From contig JAHLWT010000174.1 in NCBI GenBank assembly GCA_019057775.1, positions 22,162-86,161 on the forward strand: a stretch of DNA of 64,000 nucleotides. The letters run 5' to 3'. The translations under genes were made by a program, and so were the position numbers. This DNA comes from Promethearchaeota archaeon. GTDB taxonomy: Archaea; Asgardarchaeota; Lokiarchaeia; Sigynarchaeales; SOKP01. The notes below the pieces were generated by a model. It was not told the origin of the DNA. It saw only the letters and a list, made by a program, of their open reading frames with translations, and searched no databases. Shown here piece after piece: positions 32,728 to 52,619 of the stretch (the first letter of the stretch is position 1; each line of letters starts with the position of its first letter).

Positions 32728-35700
32728 TTAACTTCTTAAAATTTCATTGTAAAGATTTTGGATGAAATCCTCAAAATTGTTCTTATCAAATTTAACATTT
32801 AACAGAGGAGTCAACAGTGTAGGAATGAAGCTGTCCTCTTCATAGACGGGGATGATTTTCTTTAAACCTTTCTTTCTCAACTGAAATGCTGCTTTCCACT
32901 CGTCTTCTACAGAATGGGATTTTATTGAATTTTCTGTGCAAAAAAGGATAAATATGTTACTTAAATTTAACGTCCTTTCCATGTAATCAACTATGTCTTC
33001 CCCACTATCTACTTCCCAGTAAAAAATTTTATTAATTTCTGGATTATTCTCCAAACTTTTAGAGATTTCTGAGATGTTAAAATGCTTTGTATCTAATGTC
33101 GAGTAACTCAAAAATATATTGATTTCCTTTTTGAAATATTTTGTAATTGCAAAAATATAGGCAGGATATTTGGCGTATTCTCTCATATTTACTTTTTTTT
33201 GATATAGCTTATTTTTAAACACTTTTAGGTTTTCAAACGGCTCTTCAATATTTTGGATTAATGAGAATGTATTTGAGAAGATATTATCCCAGTTATTCTT
33301 TTCTGAAATAACTGAAAAATAATGACTAAATTCAAGAAAATCAACACCATCTAAAGACAATTTTCGATTTTTAAGTAATTTGGTTTTCACATTGGGTTCA
33401 ATAGTGCTTCTAATGAATGGTGGAATTCCTTTTTCCCACCAGTCATCTTTATAATTGTCTTTCAACCTGCTTCTGATAAATACATGGAGTTTTTGTTCAA
33501 ATTCCTCTATATCATACTTTGCCTTCAACTCATTTGCTTTTATATCCCTTCTTTGGTTATATCGCCTTTTAATTACAATACTTCCAATAATACTAACAGT
33601 TCCAGCTATTATTCCAATAATTATCAAAATTAATAGTTCAAAACTGAAGCCATCTGTCCCTCCTCCTTCAACAGCAATAATTTGCATCTGAATCTGTTCA
33701 TTATTATCATCAGACCAAAATACTCTATATGAACCGTCTTTAGAACTATAAGTTTCGTTAATTAAACTATCCGGATCAATAGATATCGTCAAAGCATAAA
33801 CTCCTGGAATAGTAATTTCAGAACAATCGTAAACAATATGTTTTACTTGGTCAACATTTAGATTAAATGGCTCAATAGTGTTGTTGTATAGAGTTAAGTC
33901 CAATGCTTCACATCGTATAATTACAATAATACCATTAGCGTCCCATATTCCATCGTTTATGATTGTAAAATCTAAAACGAAAGGTTGACCTTCAAAAACA
34001 TCACTTACTGTAAAATTTAAAACATTCAAATTTGGCATTGGATACCAAAGCGCGTCATTCGGATTAGTTCCTAAATTAAATTCAACACCATCATCATACG
34101 AATCGCTATCAGTATCAGAATTTGTTGCATTAGTGATATAGCCATCTAGACCAAACGTAAGTTCTTCACCATCTAATACATTATCGTTATCACTATCCGG
34201 ATCGAGGGGATTTGTATTATGATTATACTCATCTCCATCTTTAAGACCATCGCTATCGGTATCAGCTATTGTGGCATTCGTAATATAACCTAACACTCCG
34301 GAAATTTCATCTCCATCTAATAATGAATCATTATCAGTATCGGGATCAAGAGGATTCGTATTATAATTATATTCGTAATTGTCTCTTAAGTTATCGTAAT
34401 CCGTATCTGGGTTAGTTGCATTCGTAATATATCCTAAAGTTCCTAATATCTCATCTCCATCTAATAATGTATCTCCATCTGTATCAGGTTCAAGGGGATT
34501 AGTGTTATTACCATATTCGAAATCATCCCTAAGCCCATCATAATCAGTATCCGGATTAGAAGCATTAGTAACAAAGCCAGAAATTCCTAATATCTCGTTG
34601 ATGTCCCATATAGTATCAAAATCTGTATCAGGTTCAAGCGGATTAGTAAAGTTTCCATATTCGAAATCATCTCGGAGACCATCATAATCCGTATCGGGAT
34701 TTGATGCATTAGTGATAAACCCAAGAGTACCTAAAATCTCGTCTGTATCCCAAATAGTATCGAAATCTGTATCAGGTTCAAGGGGATTAGTGTTATTACC
34801 ATATTCGAAATCATCCCTAAGCCCATCATAGTCAGTATCCGGATTAGAAGCATTAGTAACGAACCCAGAAAATCCTAATATCTCGTTGATGTCCCATATA
34901 GTATCAAAATCTGTATCAGGTTCAAGAGGATTAGTAAAGTTTCCATATTCGAAATCATCCCTAAGCCCATCATAGTCTGTATCGGGATTTGATGCATTAG
35001 TGAGATAACCCCATGTTCCCTTGATTTCATCCCCATCAAGTAATAGATCATTATCCGTGTCTGAATCAATTGGATTAGTGTTATTACCATATTCATGATC
35101 GTCCCGAAGATTATCATAATCTGTATCGGAATTTGTAGCATTGGTAATATAACCTAATATCCCTTCAATTTCGTAATAATCACTTATTAGATCATAATCC
35201 GTATCATTATTCCAAGGATTTGTTCCATTTACCCATTCCCAATAATCTGTTATATTATCATATTCTGAATCTGGAGTCGTAACATTTGTTCGATAACCAT
35301 CTTTACCTAATGTATATTCTTCAAAATTTTGTAAACCGTCTCCATCACTATCTAAATTTGGAGAATAAACGAGTGGTTTCGTATCATTAGAGTTTGCACT
35401 GCCTGGAATTGTATATTTTGAATCATAAATTCCATCTTTTGGATTAATATCACTACCTGAAAAACCAACCCAATAATTTCCTGCAAAACTATCATCCCAA
35501 TTATTGTTAGTTCCATCGTCACGAGCAACAAAACCAATATAATTGCAAAAAACTCTATTGAACTTGTAGCCGGTGAATATATTGATTGAATATGGTCCTG
35601 GTGGTAAAATTTTATTGAGAATTATTGAATTCCCATGACCTTGAATAGTTATCCCTGCCACTTCGGATATTTCATTCCCTATAATGGTGTTATTATTCCC

Positions 35701-36288
35701 TCCCCATAAAAGAATACCCTCTGATAAAACAGTTATAACATTCTTGAAAACTGTATTATTATGACTACTTTTAAGGGTAATTCCAGTATTAGGGCCGATA
35801 GTCATTTCATTTTCTGAAATATTGTTAAAACGGGAATTTTCCACAAATATATGCCAGCCAAATGAGTTTAAGCTGTTATTAAAGATCAATCCATTGGAAA
35901 CATTAAACAATTCTATTCCTAAACAATCAGGCCAATAGCTCCCTGAATGATATATCGTACAATTTTTAATAATAAAAAAAACATTCGTGTTTTCAATTGA
36001 TATTCCAGTTTCATATTGATCAACAACATCTATATCTAAATCTTCTATCACATATGGATCGGTATAATTCCCAAAACCCGTACAGTTACCATCATTTTTA
36101 AAGGCAACCCACCCTTGATTACCATCTATATGAATTGGATTGGATGATTTTGAGCCTCTTAAATTCCTATACTCTATATCATCTATTTCAATCGTATCAT
36201 TTACACTATTATTTGTAGCTAATATGATTAAGGTGAAAATAATAAGGGAACATAACAAGGCAATTTTTTTTTTTTTTAAAATAATCAT
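32728..36288 (-). CDS. Large membrane receptor: beta-helix, TSP3 repeats, TM, HEPN-like and TIR domains
   Basis: 1186 residues. An N-terminal signal/anchor helix (8-24: LLCSLIIFTLIILAT) leads to a NosD-like right-handed beta-helix (about 60-300: many N-N-T/I rungs). Nine 48-residue thrombospondin type-3-like, Ca-binding repeats follow (about 313-750, DTDxDxxxDxxE). Then a CARDB-like beta domain (755-860), one TM helix (about 884-906) and a basic stop. Inside: a Swt1-type HEPN-like region (about 925-1045: FEQKLHVFIRSRLKDNYKDD, WWEKGIPPFI) and a C-terminal TIR domain (1054-1182: EINIFLSYSTLDTKHF, FYWEVDSGEDIVDYMERTL, KKIIPVYEED). This is a Toll-like topology: exterior sensor, interior TIR. Monocistronic, bounded by 60-bp direct repeats. 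Confidence 0.9.
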   Translation of the reverse strand: MIILKKKKIALLCSLIIFTLIILATNNSVNDTIEIDDIEYRNLRGSKSSNPIHIDGNQGWVAFKNDGNCTGFGNYTDPYVIEDLDIDVVDQYETGISIENTNVFFIIKNCTIYHSGSYWPDCLGIELFNVSNGLIFNNSLNSFGWHIFVENSRFNNISENEMTIGPNTGITLKSSHNNTVFKNVITVLSEGILLWGGNNNTIIGNEISEVAGITIQGHGNSIILNKILPPGPYSINIFTGYKFNRVFCNYIGFVARDDGTNNNWDDSFAGNYWVGFSGSDINPKDGIYDSKYTIPGSANSNDTKPLVYSPNLDSDGDGLQNFEEYTLGKDGYRTNVTTPDSEYDNITDYWEWVNGTNPWNNDTDYDLISDYYEIEGILGYITNATNSDTDYDNLRDDHEYGNNTNPIDSDTDNDLLLDGDEIKGTWGYLTNASNPDTDYDGLRDDFEYGNFTNPLEPDTDFDTIWDINEILGFSGFVTNASNPDTDYDGLRDDFEYGNNTNPLEPDTDFDTIWDTDEILGTLGFITNASNPDTDYDGLRDDFEYGNFTNPLEPDTDFDTIWDINEILGISGFVTNASNPDTDYDGLRDDFEYGNNTNPLEPDTDGDTLLDGDEILGTLGYITNATNPDTDYDNLRDNYEYNYNTNPLDPDTDNDSLLDGDEISGVLGYITNATIADTDSDGLKDGDEYNHNTNPLDPDSDNDNVLDGEELTFGLDGYITNATNSDTDSDSYDDGVEFNLGTNPNDALWYPMPNLNVLNFTVSDVFEGQPFVLDFTIINDGIWDANGIIVIIRCEALDLTLYNNTIEPFNLNVDQVKHIVYDCSEITIPGVYALTISIDPDSLINETYSSKDGSYRVFWSDDNNEQIQMQIIAVEGGGTDGFSFELLILIIIGIIAGTVSIIGSIVIKRRYNQRRDIKANELKAKYDIEEFEQKLHVFIRSRLKDNYKDDWWEKGIPPFIRSTIEPNVKTKLLKNRKLSLDGVDFLEFSHYFSVISEKNNWDNIFSNTFSLIQNIEEPFENLKVFKNKLYQKKVNMREYAKYPAYIFAITKYFKKEINIFLSYSTLDTKHFNISEISKSLENNPEINKIFYWEVDSGEDIVDYMERTLNLSNIFILFCTENSIKSHSVEDEWKAAFQLRKKGLKKIIPVYEEDSFIPTLLTPLLNVKFDKNNFEDFIQNLYNEILRS
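34052..35352 (-). repeat. Nine tandem 144-bp units (TSP3-like) within the receptor gene
   Basis: Each unit encodes 48 residues with DTDxDxxxDxxE and a second D-x-D-x-D Ca loop (DTDYDGLRDDFEYG). The DNA offset between neighbouring units is exactly 144 bases. Units 3-6 alternate NFT/NNT glycosylation-like motifs, so the blocks 34487-34774 and 34775-35062 are nearly identical 288-bp copies, a recent duplication or gene conversion. Confidence 0.9.
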
Positions 36289-37177: not shown

Positions 37178-38227
37178 ATGAGTGAAGAAGAAGGTAGAAC
37201 AGTTAGTTTTTTCGAAAGATATCTTACCGTGTGGGTTGCACTCTGTATTGGAATTGGTATTTTTCTTTCACAAGTTATTCCAAAAATAGGTGAAGCTATT
37301 AATTCTTTACAGATCGGGGGGATCTCAATACCTATTGGTATTTGCCTATTTTTAATGATGTACCCTGCAATGCTAAACTTACAAGCTTCAGAGTTGAAAA
37401 AATTGGGGAAAAATCCTAAACCAATTATTTTAACAATTGTATCAAATTGGCTTGTTGCACCGTTTGTTGGTTTACTTATGGCAAGGATATTTTTACAAGG
37501 TTATGAACAATTAATAATTGCGATTATCCTTCTAAGTTCCAGCCCTTGTACTGCTATGGTTCTAGTCTGGGGTTGGATGGCGAAAGGAAATCAAGAGCAA
37601 AACGTAATTAATACTAGTCTAAATACAATAACTATTATAATCGGTTATGCTCCTTTAGTTACATTATTAACTGGCATCCAGAATATACCAATTGATTGGA
37701 TTCTTTTGTTGATATCGGTATTGATTTTTATTGGAGTCCCCTTGTTATTAGGGATATTTAGTAAAAGGTTGATTGTAGCTTCTAAAGGAGAAGATTGGTT
37801 CAATAATACATATCGCCCAATTGTTGGAAAAATTTCTATTATTGCACTTTTAACAACATTAGTGGTTCTTTTTTCTTTAAGCGGAGATGTTCTTATAAAT
37901 AACCCCGATTTGTTATTATTAATTTCTATTCCAATTCTACTAGGATTTGTAATTGTAGTTGGATATAATATTCTAATTACAAAATTATTTAAACTGAAGT
38001 ATGAAGAGGCAGTAATTACGGTAATCATCGGTTCCTCAAGTCATTTTGAAATCGCTATAGCAACTGCTGTTGCAATGTTTGGAATAGGGTCTATAGCAGC
38101 TTTAGGTACTACGATGGGTCTTTTCTGGGAAGTTCCAATCATGTTATCAATCGTATATTTAGGACGATACCTTAAAAAACATGGTTTTTGGAAATCAGAC
38201 GAAGTTGAACCGACAATTGTCGAGTAA
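37178..38227 (+). CDS. acr3: ACR3-type arsenite efflux permease
   Basis: 349 residues, about ten TM helices, in the BART superfamily. Typical ACR3 parts: FFERYLTVWVALCIGIG at the start, FLMMYPAMLNLQ, and LLSSSPCTAMVLVWGWMAKGN with the conserved Cys in TM4 that binds As(III). It exports arsenite across the membrane. The divergent ArsR gene and following Cys-rich proteins make an ars cluster. Start is ATG 37178. Full length for the family (about 350). Confidence 0.93.
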   Translation: MSEEEGRTVSFFERYLTVWVALCIGIGIFLSQVIPKIGEAINSLQIGGISIPIGICLFLMMYPAMLNLQASELKKLGKNPKPIILTIVSNWLVAPFVGLLMARIFLQGYEQLIIAIILLSSSPCTAMVLVWGWMAKGNQEQNVINTSLNTITIIIGYAPLVTLLTGIQNIPIDWILLLISVLIFIGVPLLLGIFSKRLIVASKGEDWFNNTYRPIVGKISIIALLTTLVVLFSLSGDVLINNPDLLLLISIPILLGFVIVVGYNILITKLFKLKYEEAVITVIIGSSSHFEIAIATAVAMFGIGSIAALGTTMGLFWEVPIMLSIVYLGRYLKKHGFWKSDEVEPTIVE

Positions 38228-44704: not shown

Positions 44705-45850
44705 TTAAAAGCATCGATGGATTACTTGAGGTCCCATCTCCCTATATTCACGACGAGTGACCCACATACGATGGAATGTCTTCAAAGAACTAAGAATAGA
44801 CCCTCCTATCCACACGGAGTACATACGCTCTGGAGGGGCTATGATCCTCACATCCATGGAATCTGGAACTTGTTCTTTTATTTCACGAGTTAACCGTTCC
44901 TTAACTCCTGGAAACATTGTGCTACCACCCGATAGAACAATGTTACTGTATAGATCTCTCCGTAAATCCACATCACATTCTGAAATTGCTCCAACTATGA
45001 CATCGTCTAAGGGGGCTAATTCTTTTCCTAATACAGAAGGATTGAAGAAACTCTCTGGAGCTAAAAACCTCTCGAGCCCAATAGTTATAGTCTCCCCGTC
45101 TGGTAGCATATAGCTCTTTTCCATCCCCGCTACTTTATTTGATAAGATTATTTCCTTCTCTGGATCAATTGCCACATAGCAAAGTTTTTCCTTAAGATCT
45201 CTCACTATTTCTTTCTCTGCTGAAGTAGTGAATGAATACCCATTCTGCCTTAATAGCCTTTGTAAATATGTTGTGACATCTCTTCCCGCAAGGTCTATTC
45301 TTTGTATAGCATGACTTAAAGCAAATCCTTCAAAAATCGGAACAATGTGAGATACACCATCACCAATGTCAATAACACAACCAGTTGTTCTACCAGAAGC
45401 ATACAATGACAGTACAGCTTGTGTAGCAATATATAAAGCGGGAACATTAAATGTTTCAAACATTATCTCCGCCATTTTTTCTCTATTCTTTCTTGGATTC
45501 AAGGGAGCTTCAGTTAAAAGTACGGGATACTCTGAAGGATCAACTCTGAGATCTGTATAGAATGTATAATGCCATATAAGTTCCATTGCTGGCCAATCTT
45601 CTACAACACCATGTTCAATTGGATAATTCAAATTCATAATCCCCTTGAGTCCCATTGCTTCCTCTCCTATATACCATTCTCGTGAATAATCCTTTACGTC
45701 AGGCATTATATTCCCATACTTTGGTTTTCCTATTACGGTAGGAAAAACAGAACGCGGTTGATCTTCTCCTGCAAAACCATTTTTAGAGATCCCCGTCCCA
45801 TTATCTATAACCAATGCTCTATTTTTTAAAAAATCCCCGTTGACTGAAAT
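44705..45850 (-). CDS. Actin (lokiactin-type)
   Basis: A full actin of about 381 residues: phosphate-1 loop [31 protein letters not shown], phosphate-2 loop [20 protein letters not shown], adenosine loop [18 protein letters not shown], subdomain parts [17 protein letters not shown], and the C-terminal VIHRCF (eukaryotic HRKCF). It should polymerise in the cytosol. The in-frame TTG at 45814 is too late: GDFLKNRA precedes ALVIDNGTG in frame, with no NTG before the upstream TGA. A strong GAGGTG at 45859-45864 is eight bases before an ATT at 45850, so ATT is the likely start. It precedes a small gene in the same strand. Confidence 0.96.
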
Positions 45851-47797: not shown

Positions 47798-48862
47798 CTA
47801 TTTTTTTAGCATGGTAATCAACTTTTTAACTATTAAGTTCCCCATTTCTCTTGTAGTTAGCGTTTTAAAAGCTTTATCCCTAATATCTATGGTTCTTCCT
47901 TCGTTAAGAGCCTCTTCCACAGACTTATCAATTAAATTTCCAATTTCTGGGGAATTGAATGATTCCTGCATCATTAATTTTACACTTAAAATAGTACCTA
48001 TTGGATTTGCTATACCTTTTCCTGCAATATCTGGAGCAGATCCGTGAATTGGTTCATACATTGAAACTTTCCCGGGGTGAATATTTCCACTGGCAGCCAT
48101 TCCTAAACTACCAATAAGGAAGGCACCTTCGTCACTAATGATGTCACCGAACATATTCCCTGTAACAACAGTTTGGTAAGAATAAGGAGCACGAATAAGC
48201 CATTGGCAAAAACTATCAATATAAACATCCTCTTTCTTTAAATCAGGATAAGTATTTCCGATTTTGTGAAAGATTTTACGCCATAATTGACTTGGTTTTA
48301 ACACATTTGCTTTATCTACTGATGTAATTTTCTTATGTCCCTCTTTCTTCGCAAATTCATAAGCATATCGTATAATTCGTTCACAACCTTTTTTGGTGTA
48401 AAGCATTATACTTTGTGCTCTCTCCTCTGATATTTCTCCTATATCTTTATATAATCCTTCGGTATTTTCTCTTACAAAGGTGATATCAATGCCCTTCCCT
48501 ATAAATTCGTCTTTTAGTGGGCATCTATTTCGTAGAGTATCATATAACTTAATTGGTCTTAAATTCACAAATAAATCTAACTCCTGTCTTATCTTTAAGA
48601 TTGCTGATTCAGCAACTCCAGGTGGTAAGTCAGGAAGTCCAATAGCACCAAATAATAATGAATCAGAATTTTTAATAACCTCAAATGACTTCTCAGGAAG
48701 GTTACTCCCACATTTTTTCCATATTTTCCCTCCAGCGGGAGCGTCTTTAAATTCGAAATCGAATTCAGTGTACTCAGAAATAGTTTTTAATATCTTTAGC
48801 CCTTCTTCTACTACTTCTGGACCACATCCATCACCATGGGTGATTGCTATTGTTTTCTTCAT
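47798..48862 (-). CDS. leuB: 3-isopropylmalate dehydrogenase
   Basis: 354 residues, last gene of the leucine operon. Isocitrate/isopropylmalate dehydrogenase family: ITHGDGCGPEVVEEGLKIL at the start, DLFVNLRPIKLYDTLRNR, ITFVRENTEGLYKDIGE, DSFCQWLIRAPYSYQTVVT and NMFGDIISDEGAFLIGSLGM, then the NAD site EPIHGSAPDIAGKGIANPIG. It decarboxylates 3-isopropylmalate to 2-oxoisocaproate. ATG 48862 with an AGAGG site; 27 bases after leuD. The family includes homoisocitrate relatives, but the operon fits leucine. Confidence 0.9.
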   Translation of the reverse strand: MKKTIAITHGDGCGPEVVEEGLKILKTISEYTEFDFEFKDAPAGGKIWKKCGSNLPEKSFEVIKNSDSLLFGAIGLPDLPPGVAESAILKIRQELDLFVNLRPIKLYDTLRNRCPLKDEFIGKGIDITFVRENTEGLYKDIGEISEERAQSIMLYTKKGCERIIRYAYEFAKKEGHKKITSVDKANVLKPSQLWRKIFHKIGNTYPDLKKEDVYIDSFCQWLIRAPYSYQTVVTGNMFGDIISDEGAFLIGSLGMAASGNIHPGKVSMYEPIHGSAPDIAGKGIANPIGTILSVKLMMQESFNSPEIGNLIDKSVEEALNEGRTIDIRDKAFKTLTTREMGNLIVKKLITMLKK

Positions 48863-48889: not shown

Positions 48890-49408
48890 TTAAGATTTCA
48901 TTCCTGAATTTGCTATTTCTTCTTTAGCAAAATTTACCAGCCCTTTTAATTTAATTATTTTTTGTAGAAAGGCAGGAAATCTGGTAAAAGAATAAGATTG
49001 GTTAGAACTTATATTTCTTATAAGTCCTTTTTCAAAATCAATATCTAACTTATCTCCAATATTAAAAGCATCTAGATCAGGGAACAGGAGAATTGGAAGT
49101 CCAATATTAATCGCGTTTCTGAAAAAAATTCGTGCAAAACTGGGAGCGATAATTAATTCTATTCCCGAAGCTTTCAAAGCGATTGGTGCTTGTTCTCGAC
49201 TTGATCCACAACCAAAATTTGGACCCGCTACGAGGATTGTTGCTTGAAGTTCATTTTTATTTTGATGAAACTCAGGATCAAAATCTTCCATGCAATGTTT
49301 CGCTAAATATTGAGGATCCGAATTAACCAAGCATCGAGCAGGAATTATTAAATCAGTATCAATATTCTCTTGAGGATATTTAATTACTTTTCCTTGTATT
49401 ATTTTCAC
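48890..49408 (-). CDS. leuD: 3-isopropylmalate dehydratase small subunit
   Basis: 172 residues: GKVIKYPQENIDTDLIIPAR at the start, then DFDPEFHQNK, VAGPNFGCGSSREQAPIALK (family G-x-N-F-G-x-G-S-S-R-E), and FARIFFRNAINIGLPIL. This is the swivelling domain that pairs with LeuC. Starts on GTG 49408. 21 bases after leuC, same strand. Confidence 0.93.
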   Translation of the reverse strand: MKIIQGKVIKYPQENIDTDLIIPARCLVNSDPQYLAKHCMEDFDPEFHQNKNELQATILVAGPNFGCGSSREQAPIALKASGIELIIAPSFARIFFRNAINIGLPILLFPDLDAFNIGDKLDIDFEKGLIRNISSNQSYSFTRFPAFLQKIIKLKGLVNFAKEEIANSGMKS

Positions 49409-49429: not shown

Positions 49430-50704
49430 TCATATACTTTCTGGAGAGGTAATAAAACCTTTTAGAGCAGAAGACGCAGCAATTGCAGGATTTGATAAAT
49501 ATACTTCACTCTCCTTATGTCCCATCCTTCCCACGAAATTTCTGTTTGTTGTTGATATCGCTCTTTCACCAGGAGCAAGAACTCCCATATGTCCGCCTAA
49601 ACATGGGCCACAAGTAGGCGGAGATATAATCGCTTCTGCATGAAGAAAAATTTCGATTAATCCTTCCTTAAGGGCATGAAAGAGGATTTGAGGAGAACCT
49701 GGAATGATTATACATCTCACTCTAGGGTGGATCTTGTTATTTTTCATTATTCTTGCCGCAATCTGTAAATCTTCAAATCGTCCATTGGTACAAGAACCAA
49801 TTACCGCTTGGTCAATTTCAATATGTAAAGCATGTACTTCAGATATTGGTTTAGTATTGCTTGGTGAGTGCGGAAGAGCTATTTGAGGTTCAATTTGAGA
49901 ACAATCAATCTCAATGCTGTCATGATAAGTCGCATTATGATCATTTTCATAAGTTCTATAGTTTGAAATTCCTACATTTCTAAGATATTGTTCTGTAATC
50001 TTATCAGGAACAATGAAGCCTGTTTTTGCCCCTGCTTCGATTGCCATATTACACATAGTAAAACGGTTTGCCATAGATAAATTATCAATAATTTTTCCTG
50101 TAAACTCCATAACTTTATAGGTTGCACCATCAACACCAATTTGACCAATTGTATACAAAATTAAATCTTTACCTGAAACCCATTTATGCAACTGACCTGA
50201 GTATATGAATCTCATGGTTTCAGGTATTTGAAGCCAACATTTTCCAAGTGCCATTGCCACTCCTAAATCTGTCGAGCCAACACCAGTAGAGAAAGCTCCT
50301 ACTGCCCCATATGTACAAGTATGAGAATCGGCACCAATAATTACTTCACTCGGAGCTACTAAACCTTGTTCGGGAATAAGGCAATGTTCAATTCCTACCC
50401 TTCCCACCTCAAAATAGTGTGATATATGATACTTATTTGCAAATTCTCTCAAAATTTTACACTGTTTAGCCGAAGCAATATCCTTATTTGGGGTAAAATG
50501 ATCTGGAGTCAGTATTACTTTTTTTGAATCAAAAATACTTCTTTTGGTTCCTTCAATAATTTTTTCGAAAACTTCTATAGCTTTTGGTGCAGTTATGTCA
50601 TTAGCTAAGCATCTATCAATATTCACTAAAACAAAATCCCCAGCAGAGACATCCTTTTGATCGCAATGATCTCTTATGATTTTTTCCGCAATTGTTAAAT
50701 CCAT
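49430..50704 (-). CDS. leuC: 3-isopropylmalate dehydratase large subunit
   Basis: 424 residues from ATG 50704 (MDLTIAEKIIRDHCDQKDV, the usual LeuC start); the frame stays open to a TTG at 50734. It contains the [4Fe-4S] ligands in QAVIGSCTNGRFEDLQIAAR and SPPTCGPCLGGHMGVLAPGE (C and C-x-x-C), HTCTYGAVGAFSTGVGSTD, and FVGRMGHKESEVYLSNP at the end. With LeuD it isomerises 2-isopropylmalate to 3-isopropylmalate. Thirty-four bases after leuA. Confidence 0.94.
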   Translation of the reverse strand: MDLTIAEKIIRDHCDQKDVSAGDFVLVNIDRCLANDITAPKAIEVFEKIIEGTKRSIFDSKKVILTPDHFTPNKDIASAKQCKILREFANKYHISHYFEVGRVGIEHCLIPEQGLVAPSEVIIGADSHTCTYGAVGAFSTGVGSTDLGVAMALGKCWLQIPETMRFIYSGQLHKWVSGKDLILYTIGQIGVDGATYKVMEFTGKIIDNLSMANRFTMCNMAIEAGAKTGFIVPDKITEQYLRNVGISNYRTYENDHNATYHDSIEIDCSQIEPQIALPHSPSNTKPISEVHALHIEIDQAVIGSCTNGRFEDLQIAARIMKNNKIHPRVRCIIIPGSPQILFHALKEGLIEIFLHAEAIISPPTCGPCLGGHMGVLAPGERAISTTNRNFVGRMGHKESEVYLSNPAIAASSALKGFITSPESI

Positions 50705-50738
50705 AATTTTTAATATTTCATTTTTTCTTAACAATTAA

Positions 50739-52361
50739 TCATTTTAATAAAAGGCTTTTTTTCTTAACAATTAGATTTAGTCCTTTTATGAGAGATAAAA
50801 CAGAGCTCATAACGATGTCTTCATGAATCGCACTAGCTTTAACTACAATATTGCTTTCAAGATCCATGATTTCAAGTGTAACATGACCTAAAGCTTCTGT
50901 TCCACCAGTTATTGCATCAATTTGGAAATTTAAAAGTTTAATTTTGCTCATTGGTTCAAAACATTTTACAATTGCTTTACAAGATGCATCTACCGGACCT
51001 ACTCCTGTTGCTGATGCTAGTTTTTCTATAAAATTTCCATTATCTTTTATTTTTAATCGGACTGTTGATGTAGGTGTAATTGATCCAGTTAAAACAGTTA
51101 ATTCCTCAAGCTCTACATACTGTTCTTCTTTTGGTAATTCACCCAAAACATCTTTTAAAATAGCTAAGAAATCCTCTTCGGAAACCTCATGACCTTTATC
51201 ACCAAACCTCTTTATAGCCTTCATTATTTTCATAAATTGTTCATCAGTAGGGCTTAATCCTAAATCATTAATTTTAGCCCTAAGAGCGTGGGCTCCTGTG
51301 TGTTTTCCAAGTTTTATTGACTGTCTGATAATTGCTTCCACATCGTCAGAACGGCGAATTCCTATTAATTCGGGTGTGATGGGTTCATAAGTGCGTGCAT
51401 GCTTAATCATCGCATGAGCATGAATACCTGATTCATGAGCAAATGCATTCTGACCTATAAGGGGTGAGAGTCGTCCGATTTTAATTTTTCCGCCACAATA
51501 ACTTTCAACTAGTTTAGCTGTAGGAAATATTTTTTTGGTCTTAATATTCATATGTATTTGATATAACGCATAAATAGACATAGCTGTTTCTTCAAAGGAT
51601 GCATTACCTGCCCGTTCCCCCAAACCTAAAATTGTTGTTTGAGCTTCTGAAGCACCATTTTCAAAACCAGCAAGTGTATTTGCAACAGCTAAACCAAAAT
51701 CATTATGACAATGGACAGCTATGCGTATATTCTTGGGCAATGTTTCATAATTCTTTTGTATAATATGTCCAAAACCTATTGGAGAAATTGTTCCTACAGT
51801 ATCAGGTATATTTATTCGAGTAGCTCCACTTTCGACAGCAGTCAGGTTAGCTTTAATTAAAAAACCTAAATCTGACCGAGTTGCATCCTCAGCTGAAAAT
51901 AGTATTGTAGAATAATGTTCTTTAGCATAAGATACCATCTCTGTTATTGTTTCTATCACCTCGTCTTTAGTTAACTGGAGTTTTTCTCTCATATGGAGGT
52001 CTGAGGTTGCAAGGAATAAATGTATACTATCCATGTCGGCCTCTATTACCTTATCTATATCGATTTTCTTTGTTCTAGCTAATCCAATCACTTCAGAATC
52101 TAAACCCATTTTTGCTATGTCTCTACAAGCTTCAAAATCACCTTGAGAAATTACAGGAAAACCTGCTTCTATAATGTCAATTCCTAATTCATTAAGAGCT
52201 TGAGCAATAGATAACTTTTCTTCATGGGTAAAACTAATACCTGGAGTTTGTTCTCCATCACGGAGTGTTGTATCAAAAAAATATGCTCTCTCAGGAAGGA
52301 CAAGTGATCCTCTGATTTTTTCCATTATATCGGAAACGACGATATCGTTTTTTCTATTCAT
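50739..52361 (-). CDS. leuA: 2-isopropylmalate synthase
   Basis: 540 residues. FDTTLRDGEQTPGISFTHEE (family start with the metal Asp), then AVHCHNDFGLAVANTLAGFE with HxH and NASFEETAMS; the alpha-isopropylmalate synthase catalytic barrel covers about 1-380. The C-terminal part (about 410-540: YVELEELTVLTGSI ... VGPVDASCKAIVKCF) is the LeuA dimer/regulatory domain for leucine feedback. First gene of leuACDB. It is preceded by a Leu-rich leader peptide and hairpins. AAAAGG at 52370-52375, eight bases before ATG 52361, is the ribosome site. Confidence 0.94.
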   Translation of the reverse strand: MNRKNDIVVSDIMEKIRGSLVLPERAYFFDTTLRDGEQTPGISFTHEEKLSIAQALNELGIDIIEAGFPVISQGDFEACRDIAKMGLDSEVIGLARTKKIDIDKVIEADMDSIHLFLATSDLHMREKLQLTKDEVIETITEMVSYAKEHYSTILFSAEDATRSDLGFLIKANLTAVESGATRINIPDTVGTISPIGFGHIIQKNYETLPKNIRIAVHCHNDFGLAVANTLAGFENGASEAQTTILGLGERAGNASFEETAMSIYALYQIHMNIKTKKIFPTAKLVESYCGGKIKIGRLSPLIGQNAFAHESGIHAHAMIKHARTYEPITPELIGIRRSDDVEAIIRQSIKLGKHTGAHALRAKINDLGLSPTDEQFMKIMKAIKRFGDKGHEVSEEDFLAILKDVLGELPKEEQYVELEELTVLTGSITPTSTVRLKIKDNGNFIEKLASATGVGPVDASCKAIVKCFEPMSKIKLLNFQIDAITGGTEALGHVTLEIMDLESNIVVKASAIHEDIVMSSVLSLIKGLNLIVKKKSLLLK

Positions 52362-52397
52362 CTTTTTAACCTTTTACGAATTTATTTAAAATATATA

Positions 52398-52445
52398 GCC
52401 CTTCCACTTTCAAAAGGAAAATACTCTCCTAGAAAGAAAGAGGGC
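52398..52445 (-). promoter_or_regulatory. Stem-loop between Leu leader and leuA (possible attenuator)
   Basis: On the transcript, 52445-52432 (GCCCUCUUUCUUUC) pairs with 52411-52398 (GAAAGUGGAAGGGC): 14 positions with 10 Watson-Crick pairs, two G-U and two mismatches, and a 20-base loop. The loop contains CCUUUU, complementary to the leuA ribosome site AAAAGG. A competing pairing uses leader bases 52493-52482 with 52434-52425 (UUCUAGGAGA). It lies directly after the leader stop. Confidence 0.55.
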
Positions 52446-52448
52446 ACT

Positions 52449-52550
52449 CTATAATAATAAGAGTAATAATAATCTCTTCAATTCTAAAGGAGATACGAAT
52501 CTCAAACTTATTTTATAATTAGGAATAAGTAAACTCTGAGTATCCTTCAT
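52449..52550 (-). CDS. Leucine leader peptide upstream of leuA (leuL-like)
   Basis: A 33-codon ATG-to-TAG frame with 12 leucines: MKDTQSLLIPNYKISLRFVS, then PLELKR and seven consecutive Leu codons (TTA TTA TTA CTC TTA TTA TTA) and TAG. An AAAAGGAT ribosome site is eight bases before its ATG and a TATA element at 52603-52610 is in place for a short transcript leader. The leuA start is 87 bases after its stop. The pattern is that of bacterial leuL, where scarce Leu-tRNA stalls the ribosome on the Leu run; that this occurs here is inference. It is absent from usual annotation because of its size. Confidence 0.75.
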   Translation of the reverse strand: MKDTQSLLIPNYKISLRFVSPLELKRLLLLLLL

Positions 52551-52594
52551 TCTTTGTAATCCTTTTAGAATTGTTAATTATAAAAAGTAGATTG

Positions 52595-52619
52595 CTTATA
52601 AACTTATAAATGTTTCTTT
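52595..52619 (-). promoter_or_regulatory. Promoter of the leu leader and leuACDB
   Basis: Minus strand: AAAGAAACA (BRE-like) then TTTATAAG twice (52610-52603 and 52602-52595). A start about 25 bases further gives a transcript beginning near 52575, followed by the leader's ribosome site at 52559-52566 and ATG at 52550. Confidence 0.55.

Follow-up and report, generated by a model that had tools for sequence, protein, structure and literature searches.

In bacteria, the regulation of amino acid genes by leader peptides is textbook knowledge, and leuL, trpL and pheM stand for the ribosome-mediated attenuation of amino acid operons that works through them; in control of the tna kind, it is Rho that the stalled ribosome keeps off. 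Archaea, to our knowledge, use FttA/aCPSF1 and not Rho. Bacterial attenuators, among them those of Actinobacteria described in PMC1262725, combine a short ORF, cognate codons, an own ribosome site and surrounding RNA hairpins, and occur before biosynthetic operons as well as tRNA synthetase genes, all of which is also seen in the leaders reported here. The same source describes the Actinobacterial LEU element, in which a uORF with a Leu run and a conserved RNA structure precede leuA, and where the Leu run pairs with the leuA Shine–Dalgarno (SD) box and a pseudoknot is formed. When codons were mutated in the leaders of Streptomyces ilvB and leuA, the outcome was not the one that classical attenuation predicts; for this reason, protein binding was proposed for the LEU element (PMC1262725), and the result cautions against taking a Leu run by itself as proof. 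Rho-dependent control was suggested for those cys leaders that lack terminators (PMC1262725).

On the archaeal side, FttA/aCPSF1 termination at U-tracts is described, in the part of PMC8716108 consulted, for transcript ends and not for regulated leaders, and short ORFs (15–31 aa, 16 cases) were reported from 5' UTRs of Haloferax volcanii (PMC4983044), similar in that respect to the leaders presented here but, unlike them, with neither cognate codons nor attenuation named in the available part of that paper. Among the open-access literature matches listed, judged by title and the start of the abstract, there was no description of archaeal amino acid leader peptides: a Methanothermobacter valine paper touches, in the excerpt seen, on IlvBCD attenuation only in general terms, citing Corynebacterium (PMC13158618), PMC6393860 uses “leader peptide” for secreted peptides, and attenuation and riboswitches did not come up in a term search of the accessible text of a 2026 Asgard review (PMC12993045).

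Against this background, comparison of Lokiarchaeal genomes brings out a conserved short ORF before leuA, its Leu run, a hairpin behind its stop codon (hairpin B) and cognate leaders before some other genes. These comparisons give strong support to the reading that, in an Asgard archaeon, a leader with Leu codons 5' of leuA would sense the leucine supply. The locus differs from bacterial attenuators in being archaeal, in having its cognate codons at the very end of the frame, where they adjoin a hairpin located at the stop or behind it, and in that neither a hairpin-plus-U-run terminator nor a competing antiterminator helix was found at leuA. As both an intrinsic terminator and an antiterminator were looked for and neither was found, the leuA leader is not filed here in the terminator-based attenuation class. 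Closer to control of the tna kind would be a ribosome stall beside the stop codon, for which alternative RNA structures are unnecessary.

The leader ORF and the leu operon behind it

The window (the whole stretch of 64,000 nucleotides analyzed here) carries the following features, listed in the direction of transcription, all of them on the minus strand:

52597..52610, minus: candidate promoter, TATA-like TTTATAA / TATAA, about 47–60 nt 5' of the leader ATG (by sequence)
52560..52572, minus: predicted 5' arm of the leader hairpin, identical with the leader SD region, AATTCTAAAAGGA (paired with 52480–52491 in the free fold)
52559..52566, minus: leader ribosome-binding site, AAAAGGAT (read from the sequence)
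52449..52550, minus: leader ORF, 33 codons, MKDTQSLLIPNYKISLRFVSPLELKRLLLLLLL and stop (read from the sequence; counterpart in 33 clear and 1 weak of 35 orthologous loci)
52480..52491, minus: predicted 3' arm of the leader hairpin, inside the leader frame and immediately ahead of its Leu codons, TCCTTTAGAATT (free fold, swap test, clade folds)
52452..52472, minus: terminal run, TTA TTA TTA CTC TTA TTA TTA, then TAG (read from the sequence; position-wise conservation)
52398..52445, minus: hairpin B, starting 3 nt behind the leader stop, with two U4 tracts (52421–52418 and 52415–52412) (shuffle and swap tests)
52370..52375, minus: leuA ribosome-binding site AAAAGG, with hairpin B ending 22 nt before it (read from the sequence)
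50739..52361, minus: leuA, 2-isopropylmalate synthase, 540 aa, ATG start (homologues so named, with Pfam PF00682/PF08502)
49430..50734, minus: leuC-like ORF, 434 aa, next after leuA in the operon (named by reading the translation)
48890..49408, minus: leuD-like ORF, 172 aa (named by reading the translation)
47798..48862, minus: leuB-like ORF, 354 aa (named by reading the translation)

An earlier, sequence-only reading of this DNA had pointed to a frame of 33 codons with 12 Leu and seven Leu codons before TAG, and its coordinates hold; the strand, which it had left unstated, is the minus one, as translation of 52550–52449 gives 12 Leu among the 33 residues and the plus strand at 52449–52550 is full of stops. 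Reading the minus strand also turned up the ribosome site, the upstream TATA and the 87-nt distance from the leader stop to the leuA start that had been claimed, while the statement that no longer run could fit into so short a frame is not exact. The TTTATAA at 52610–52604 lies 54–60 nt 5' of the leader ATG, and a comparable one was noticed by eye 5' of the leaders in L001, L015, L016 and L020. A search of all 64,000 nt found no tRNA genes, and no Rfam family reached its gathering score anywhere in the window, on which basis a T-box or a known riboswitch is rejected for it.

Elsewhere in the window, the minus strand encodes an actin-like protein (44705–45814, 369 aa, by reading the translation), such as an Asgard archaeon would be expected to have, and a secreted-looking protein of 1186 aa (32728–36288), in which tandem Asp/Asn-rich repeats and a membrane span were noticed by eye and the C-terminal part of which resembles, also by eye, a TIR-like domain.

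Conservation of the leader and the question of chance

The genomes compared are draft MAGs, and the evidence throughout is comparative. A LeuA scan yielded 26 loci, all in Lokiarchaeota or Lokiarchaeia MAGs, and in every one of the 26, as in the window, a short ORF ends in a Leu run or has one close to its end (for L019, the upstream DNA comprises 130 nt only). The search was then widened to 227 genomes of the phylum, at least 133 of which have LeuA-family matches at E 1e-60 or better. Among the matches listed, Asgard LeuA orthologues of 65–87% identity with upstream DNA number 35 (a truncated orthologue, G115, being left out of the count), of which 33 have a clear leader, one a weak leader ending in LHLLLRYL (G157, L087) and one none (G118, L090). 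By the filter, no leader precedes any of the 36 homologues below 65% identity that were fetched (L091–L126, a part of the many such homologues among the matches listed, with several start codons uncertain); the filter hits L104 and L120 were dismissed as chance, as were hits generally if the run was not terminal, lay far off or was absent in kin. The leader thus seems to mark, as far as tested, the Lokiarchaeia and close kin (G114, G117).

From the leader stop to the gene start, the distance over the window and 34 further leaders is 87–101 nt in 31 of these 35 and 107–132 nt in L004, L012, L017 and L026, the gene start of the last not being certain. Counted back from the stop, Leu occupies codon -1 in 31 of 35 leaders, codon -2 in 32, codons -3 and -4 in 34 each and codon -5 in 30. 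Between leaders paired within a clade, the last five codons show 37 synonymous versus 27 nonsynonymous changes and the fourteen upstream codons 44 versus 372, the latter figure being inflated by indels, since the comparison was anchored at the stop and ungapped. The earlier proposal to align the region upstream of leuA in related Asgard genomes is thus borne out in 33 clear cases and 1 weak one of 35, where the Leu run is kept and the rest of the frame drifts. A side observation over the 35 loci concerns the choice of codon: of the 266 Leu codons within the last ten leader positions, 188 are TTA, versus 496 of 1142 in the leuA genes; a preference for one tRNA-Leu, or else for low structure, may lie behind this.

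That AT-rich DNA simply yields TTA repeats, which the TTA share speaks for, is an explanation that we consider hardly credible, given that the leader is kept in 33 of 35 orthologues and that the run holds other Leu codons too (CTC, CTT, CTA, TTG). A search for in-frame Leu codons directly before a stop, on both strands of the window and the 26 related loci (362,635 bases), found 38 terminal runs of at least four: all 12 runs of six or more belong to leuA leaders, those of five do so in 5 of 8 cases (the other three ending frames of 3, 5 and 8 codons), and those of four in 4 of 18, with 14 elsewhere. As no equal run is present elsewhere in these bases, the earlier judgement that chance is unlikely proves sound, and simple composition as the origin of the Leu run is rejected on conservation and run search together.

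Cognate leaders before other amino acid genes

Leaders whose codons match the gene that follows were also found before leuS, ileS and trp genes, and they lend the strongest support to the reading of these ORFs as amino-acid-sensing leaders, by comparison of sequences. In the leuS set (27 genomes, with seven LeuRS genes above the family cut-off, one of them also checked against NCBIfam), all seven genes have a leader (L273–L279) with three to six Leu at its end, in one case closed by a Ser; the four-Leu filter flagged one of these, and the six others, which end in three Leu, were recognised by their reading frames. Second LeuRS-like genes have such a leader in 1 of 18 cases (L316, ending in VLLLLL and the stop). 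One type of IleRS gene is preceded by a leader with an Ile run in 6 of 6 cases (L329–L333, L336), with the endings STIIII, TSIIIIR, SQIIIS and SDIIIR before the stop, and the other type in none of the 13 testable genes (14 loci, one with 45 nt upstream), two far-off filter hits there being dismissed. A CACATCC stretch was seen to recur in the hairpin loop of the ileS leaders.

The trp set comprises 11 Lokiarchaeal genomes with trpE, few and related in sequence; one of them, G125, has no LeuA orthologue among the matches listed and was placed in the group by its TrpE and its leader. In nine of the 11, a short ORF with three or four terminal Trp codons stands before the first trp gene: a WFWAWRWHA-like leader before trpE in five (L178, L179, L183, L184, L237), WFWFWHWHA before a trpA-like gene (L240) and an FRWQWLWRA-like leader before a trpD-like gene in three (L241, L242, L244). 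The other two (L243, L247) have weaker leaders with two Trp codons and the common ending LGWQMPWRY. Other Asgard trpE loci that were fetched show no Trp motif (L217–L239 except L237; in G118 the contig ends too early). Frames with three Trp near the end arise by chance about once per 60 kb in this set, so it is position, motif and recurrence that carry the Trp case and not the number of Trp alone; a WxWxWxW DNA pattern, searched in 227 genomes, matched in 194 and is hence uninformative. Tails inside trpA (L182/L186) and L252 were filter hits dismissed as chance.

No leader was accepted before acetolactate synthase (30 loci out of more than 100 rows), hisG (21 loci, two with less than 50 nt of upstream DNA), ilvC (10 of 35 rows), pheA/PDT (18 loci), trpS (27 loci) or valS (22 loci, of which two have at most 60 nt upstream), and the system is therefore selective. 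Dismissed as chance were acetolactate synthase triple-residue hits such as L040, L041 and L054, L142 and L153 from the hisG/ilvC/trp scans, L267, L334, L335, L369, L385, L386, L391, L396, L397 and L404, as well as short frames before the window genes at 37178, 46115 and 61605.

RNA structure around the leaders

Hairpin B is predicted in all 34 leuA leaders folded, its outer stem starting 0–5 nt past the stop and closing at 48–60 nt, and the two U4 tracts of the window's copy read UUUUCCUUUU. Compared with dinucleotide shuffles, it reaches a mean z of -3.5, and 29 of the 34 leaders fall into the best 5%, as against z -0.05 (5 of 33 in the best 5%) for an upstream control and z 0.19 (1 of 34) for the stretch behind it. 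Its own arms also beat arms swapped between species (z 2.0; 25 of 33 leaders in the best decile), and its sequence varies widely between clades. Support for pairing of the leader SD with the segment just before the run is moderate in the same species-swap test (z 1.1; best decile 13 of 33), followed by a small inner stem (z 0.8; 10 of 33) and by two overlapping leader segments (z 0.7), and none of the remaining pairs among the 36 region pairs tested on 33 leaders exceeds 0.4. When four clade alignments were folded, hairpin B came out in all four, the inner stem in three and the outer leader (SD) helix in two; both-sided changes affect 6 of 53, 8 of 33, 9 of 31 and 2 of 34 predicted pairs, and the covariation term is favourable in two of the folds (-1.35, -0.33) and unfavourable in two (+4.12, +1.2). 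RNAalifold on the full alignment of 33 leaders returned zero pairs, which we attribute to the alignment being non-structural.

No hairpin with a U-run that would make a terminator at leuA was found in the window, and hairpin B is not a bacterial terminator; U-runs of at least 5 are present in 11 of 35 leuA spacers, at varied places. Species-swap and crossing-helix tests at leuA gave neither a competing (antiterminator) helix nor a pseudoknot. Pairing of the hairpin loop with downstream sequence (z -0.25; best decile 1 of 33) and of the Leu run with the leuA SD (z -0.21; 2 of 33, no better than swapped pairs) was likewise not found at leuA, in which respect the locus is unlike the Actinobacterial LEU element, and on these two values identity with that element is rejected. 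With a simulated ribosome, the mean accessibility of the leuA start over 34 leaders is 0.58 in the free RNA, 0.61 and 0.63 with the ribosome stalled and 0.65 with it at the stop, the shifts being inconsistent, so these models do not support a consistent sequestration of the leuA start across leaders; for the window itself, the simulated values are 0.40, 0.49 and 0.42, and 0.86.

Behind the leuS leader stop, a hairpin with a U-rich loop is followed by a second helix, which joins that loop to a downstream GAAAAAG-like stretch and crosses the first. The second keeps pairing across species (z 1.45, 8 sequences), and the first, nearly invariant in sequence, has no support by the swap test (z 0.23); from these models, a pseudoknot or a switch seems possible. 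Nine trp leaders have, by eye, a small hairpin across the stop codon (CACG/CGUG in the WFWAWRWHA-like and WFWFWHWHA kinds, CGCG/CGCG in the FRWQWLWRA-like kind), which reaches only z 0.49 in the swap test. U6–U9 at 91–106 nt past the stop is seen in 4 of 6 ileS and 5 of 11 trp leaders. The leuS (8) and ileS (6) tests rest on few, related sequences.

Proposed mechanism and competing explanations

The leader is very probably the sensor in a ribosome-mediated attenuation for leucine, operating in archaea. Leader translation, stalling, the direction of control and the output step would, we infer, be arranged as follows. A ribosome would read the 33-codon leader while the transcript is being made; with charged tRNA-Leu scarce, it would stall in the terminal Leu codons, directly against hairpin B, and would overlap and open the foot of that hairpin, so that leuACDB is expressed, while with plentiful leucine it would pass and leave at the stop, hairpin B would form and expression would fall. 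Pairing of the leader SD with the pre-run segment perhaps keeps later ribosomes off, so that each transcript would be tested once. In bacteria, the stretch of mRNA occupied by a ribosome reaches about 12 nt beyond the codon being decoded (PMC4833913), from which it would follow that a ribosome waiting near the stop covers the hairpin foot and that free passage lets the hairpin form. Of the leuL-type attenuation that the sequence-only reading had invoked, the conserved cognate Leu run stands, as do leaders with matching codons elsewhere, but the terminator and antiterminator are absent at leuA, where the codons abut hairpin B instead.

Attenuation by ribosome stalling is likely, and termination as its output has no better than an even chance; transcription termination by FttA/aCPSF1 at U-tracts is what we would put at about that level, and a block of leuA translation well below it. 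Two U4 tracts were the least that aCPSF1 bound well in Methanococcus, a Lokiarchaeal aCPSF1 homologue also works with U-tracts (both PMC8716108), and ribosome and aCPSF1 were proposed to be mutually exclusive at Spt4/5 (PMC8116511). When U4 tracts in the first 60 nt and at 60–130 nt past the stop were counted against mononucleotide shuffles, the first 60 nt held 2.50 vs 1.02 for leuS, 1.91 vs 1.00 for trp, 1.50 vs 0.93 for ileS and 0.91 vs 0.62 for leuA, and at 60–130 nt the excess is absent for trp, small for leuS and 1.83 vs 1.10 for ileS. The enrichment behind the leuS and trp leaders is akin to the system of PMC8716108, and the signal at leuA is weak, with 8 of 34 leuA spacers lacking any U4 tract; a role of FttA/aCPSF1 in these leaders is thus a guess. 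Tentatively, and with more doubt than confidence, one could picture a Lokiarchaeal attenuation regulon (leuA, leuS, ileS, trp) built on an FttA/aCPSF1 terminator in place of Rho or of hairpin terminators as in bacteria, in which a stalled ribosome would block the stop-side hairpin and, in the leuS version, would free U-tracts for hiding in the crossing helix, so that the factor could not bind and transcription would continue. Points against the attenuation reading are that neither a competing helix nor a U-run terminator was found at leuA, that the accessibility of its start is inconsistent, that some leuA spacers (8 of 34) lack a U4 tract, that the alignment of all 33 leaders yielded no pairs and two of the four clade folds an unfavourable covariation term, that support for the leader SD helix is moderate, that one orthologue (G118, L090) and several amino acid genes are without a leader, and that SD sequences are rare in Lokiarchaea according to the 2026 review (PMC12993045).

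The same structures might serve translational control, with a stalled ribosome or hairpin B altering the access of ribosomes to the leuA start and transcription unaffected. The end of hairpin B 22 nt before the leuA SD and the lack of a U-run behind it, both in the window, would fit this, as would the distance from leader to gene, which is fairly constant (87–101 nt for 31 of the 35 leaders), and the simulation for the window, where a ribosome placed at the stop frees the leuA start (0.40 to 0.86); over the 34 leaders, however, that accessibility shifts inconsistently, the species-swap test upholds no helix that the leuA SD might form with hairpin B, with the loop of B or with the leader, and once an mRNA is complete the leader SD helix would stand in the way of sensing more than once, which together leave this explanation possible and somewhat doubtful. 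Improbable, in our estimate, is termination-reinitiation, by which leader translation would bring ribosomes across hairpin B to leuA and slow Leu decoding would lower or delay their delivery: bacterial leader genes were proposed to raise translation in this manner (PMC4833913), and hairpin B would shorten the effective distance, but the signal in that source is an excess of leader genes 10–11 bp before the gene, against at least 87 nt here, and stalling would lower leuA expression at leucine shortage, the wrong sign for a biosynthetic gene.

The remaining explanations would do without sensing by the ribosome. Were the hairpin a protein-binding site or a riboswitch-like element and the Leu run incidental, as the protein binding proposed for the LEU element before leuA might invite one to think (PMC1262725), one would have to reconcile this with cognate codons that recur in four gene contexts, a hairpin B that differs widely in sequence between clades and the empty Rfam search of the window, and we regard it as quite improbable. 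The hydrophobic C-terminus could suggest that the product is not a sensor but a functional Leu-rich microprotein, e.g., a toxin or membrane peptide, a reading to which we give very little chance: apart from the run, the peptide is unconserved (the 44 synonymous versus 372 other codon differences), its conserved part of about four to seven Leu is too short for a membrane span and the other leaders carry Ile or Trp to match their gene, and on these three grounds the membrane microprotein is rejected.

Biological meaning

Taken as attenuation by a stalling ribosome, the leaders suggest that Lokiarchaea may sense amino acid shortage as many bacteria do. A conserved Lokiarchaeal set of this kind would mean that the coupling of transcription and translation serves regulation in the archaeal group nearest to eukaryotes, and the reading yields specific tests at the level of single codons. 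If it is true, a mechanism thought to be bacterial either arose again or was shared, and premature termination in archaea can be gated by the ribosome.
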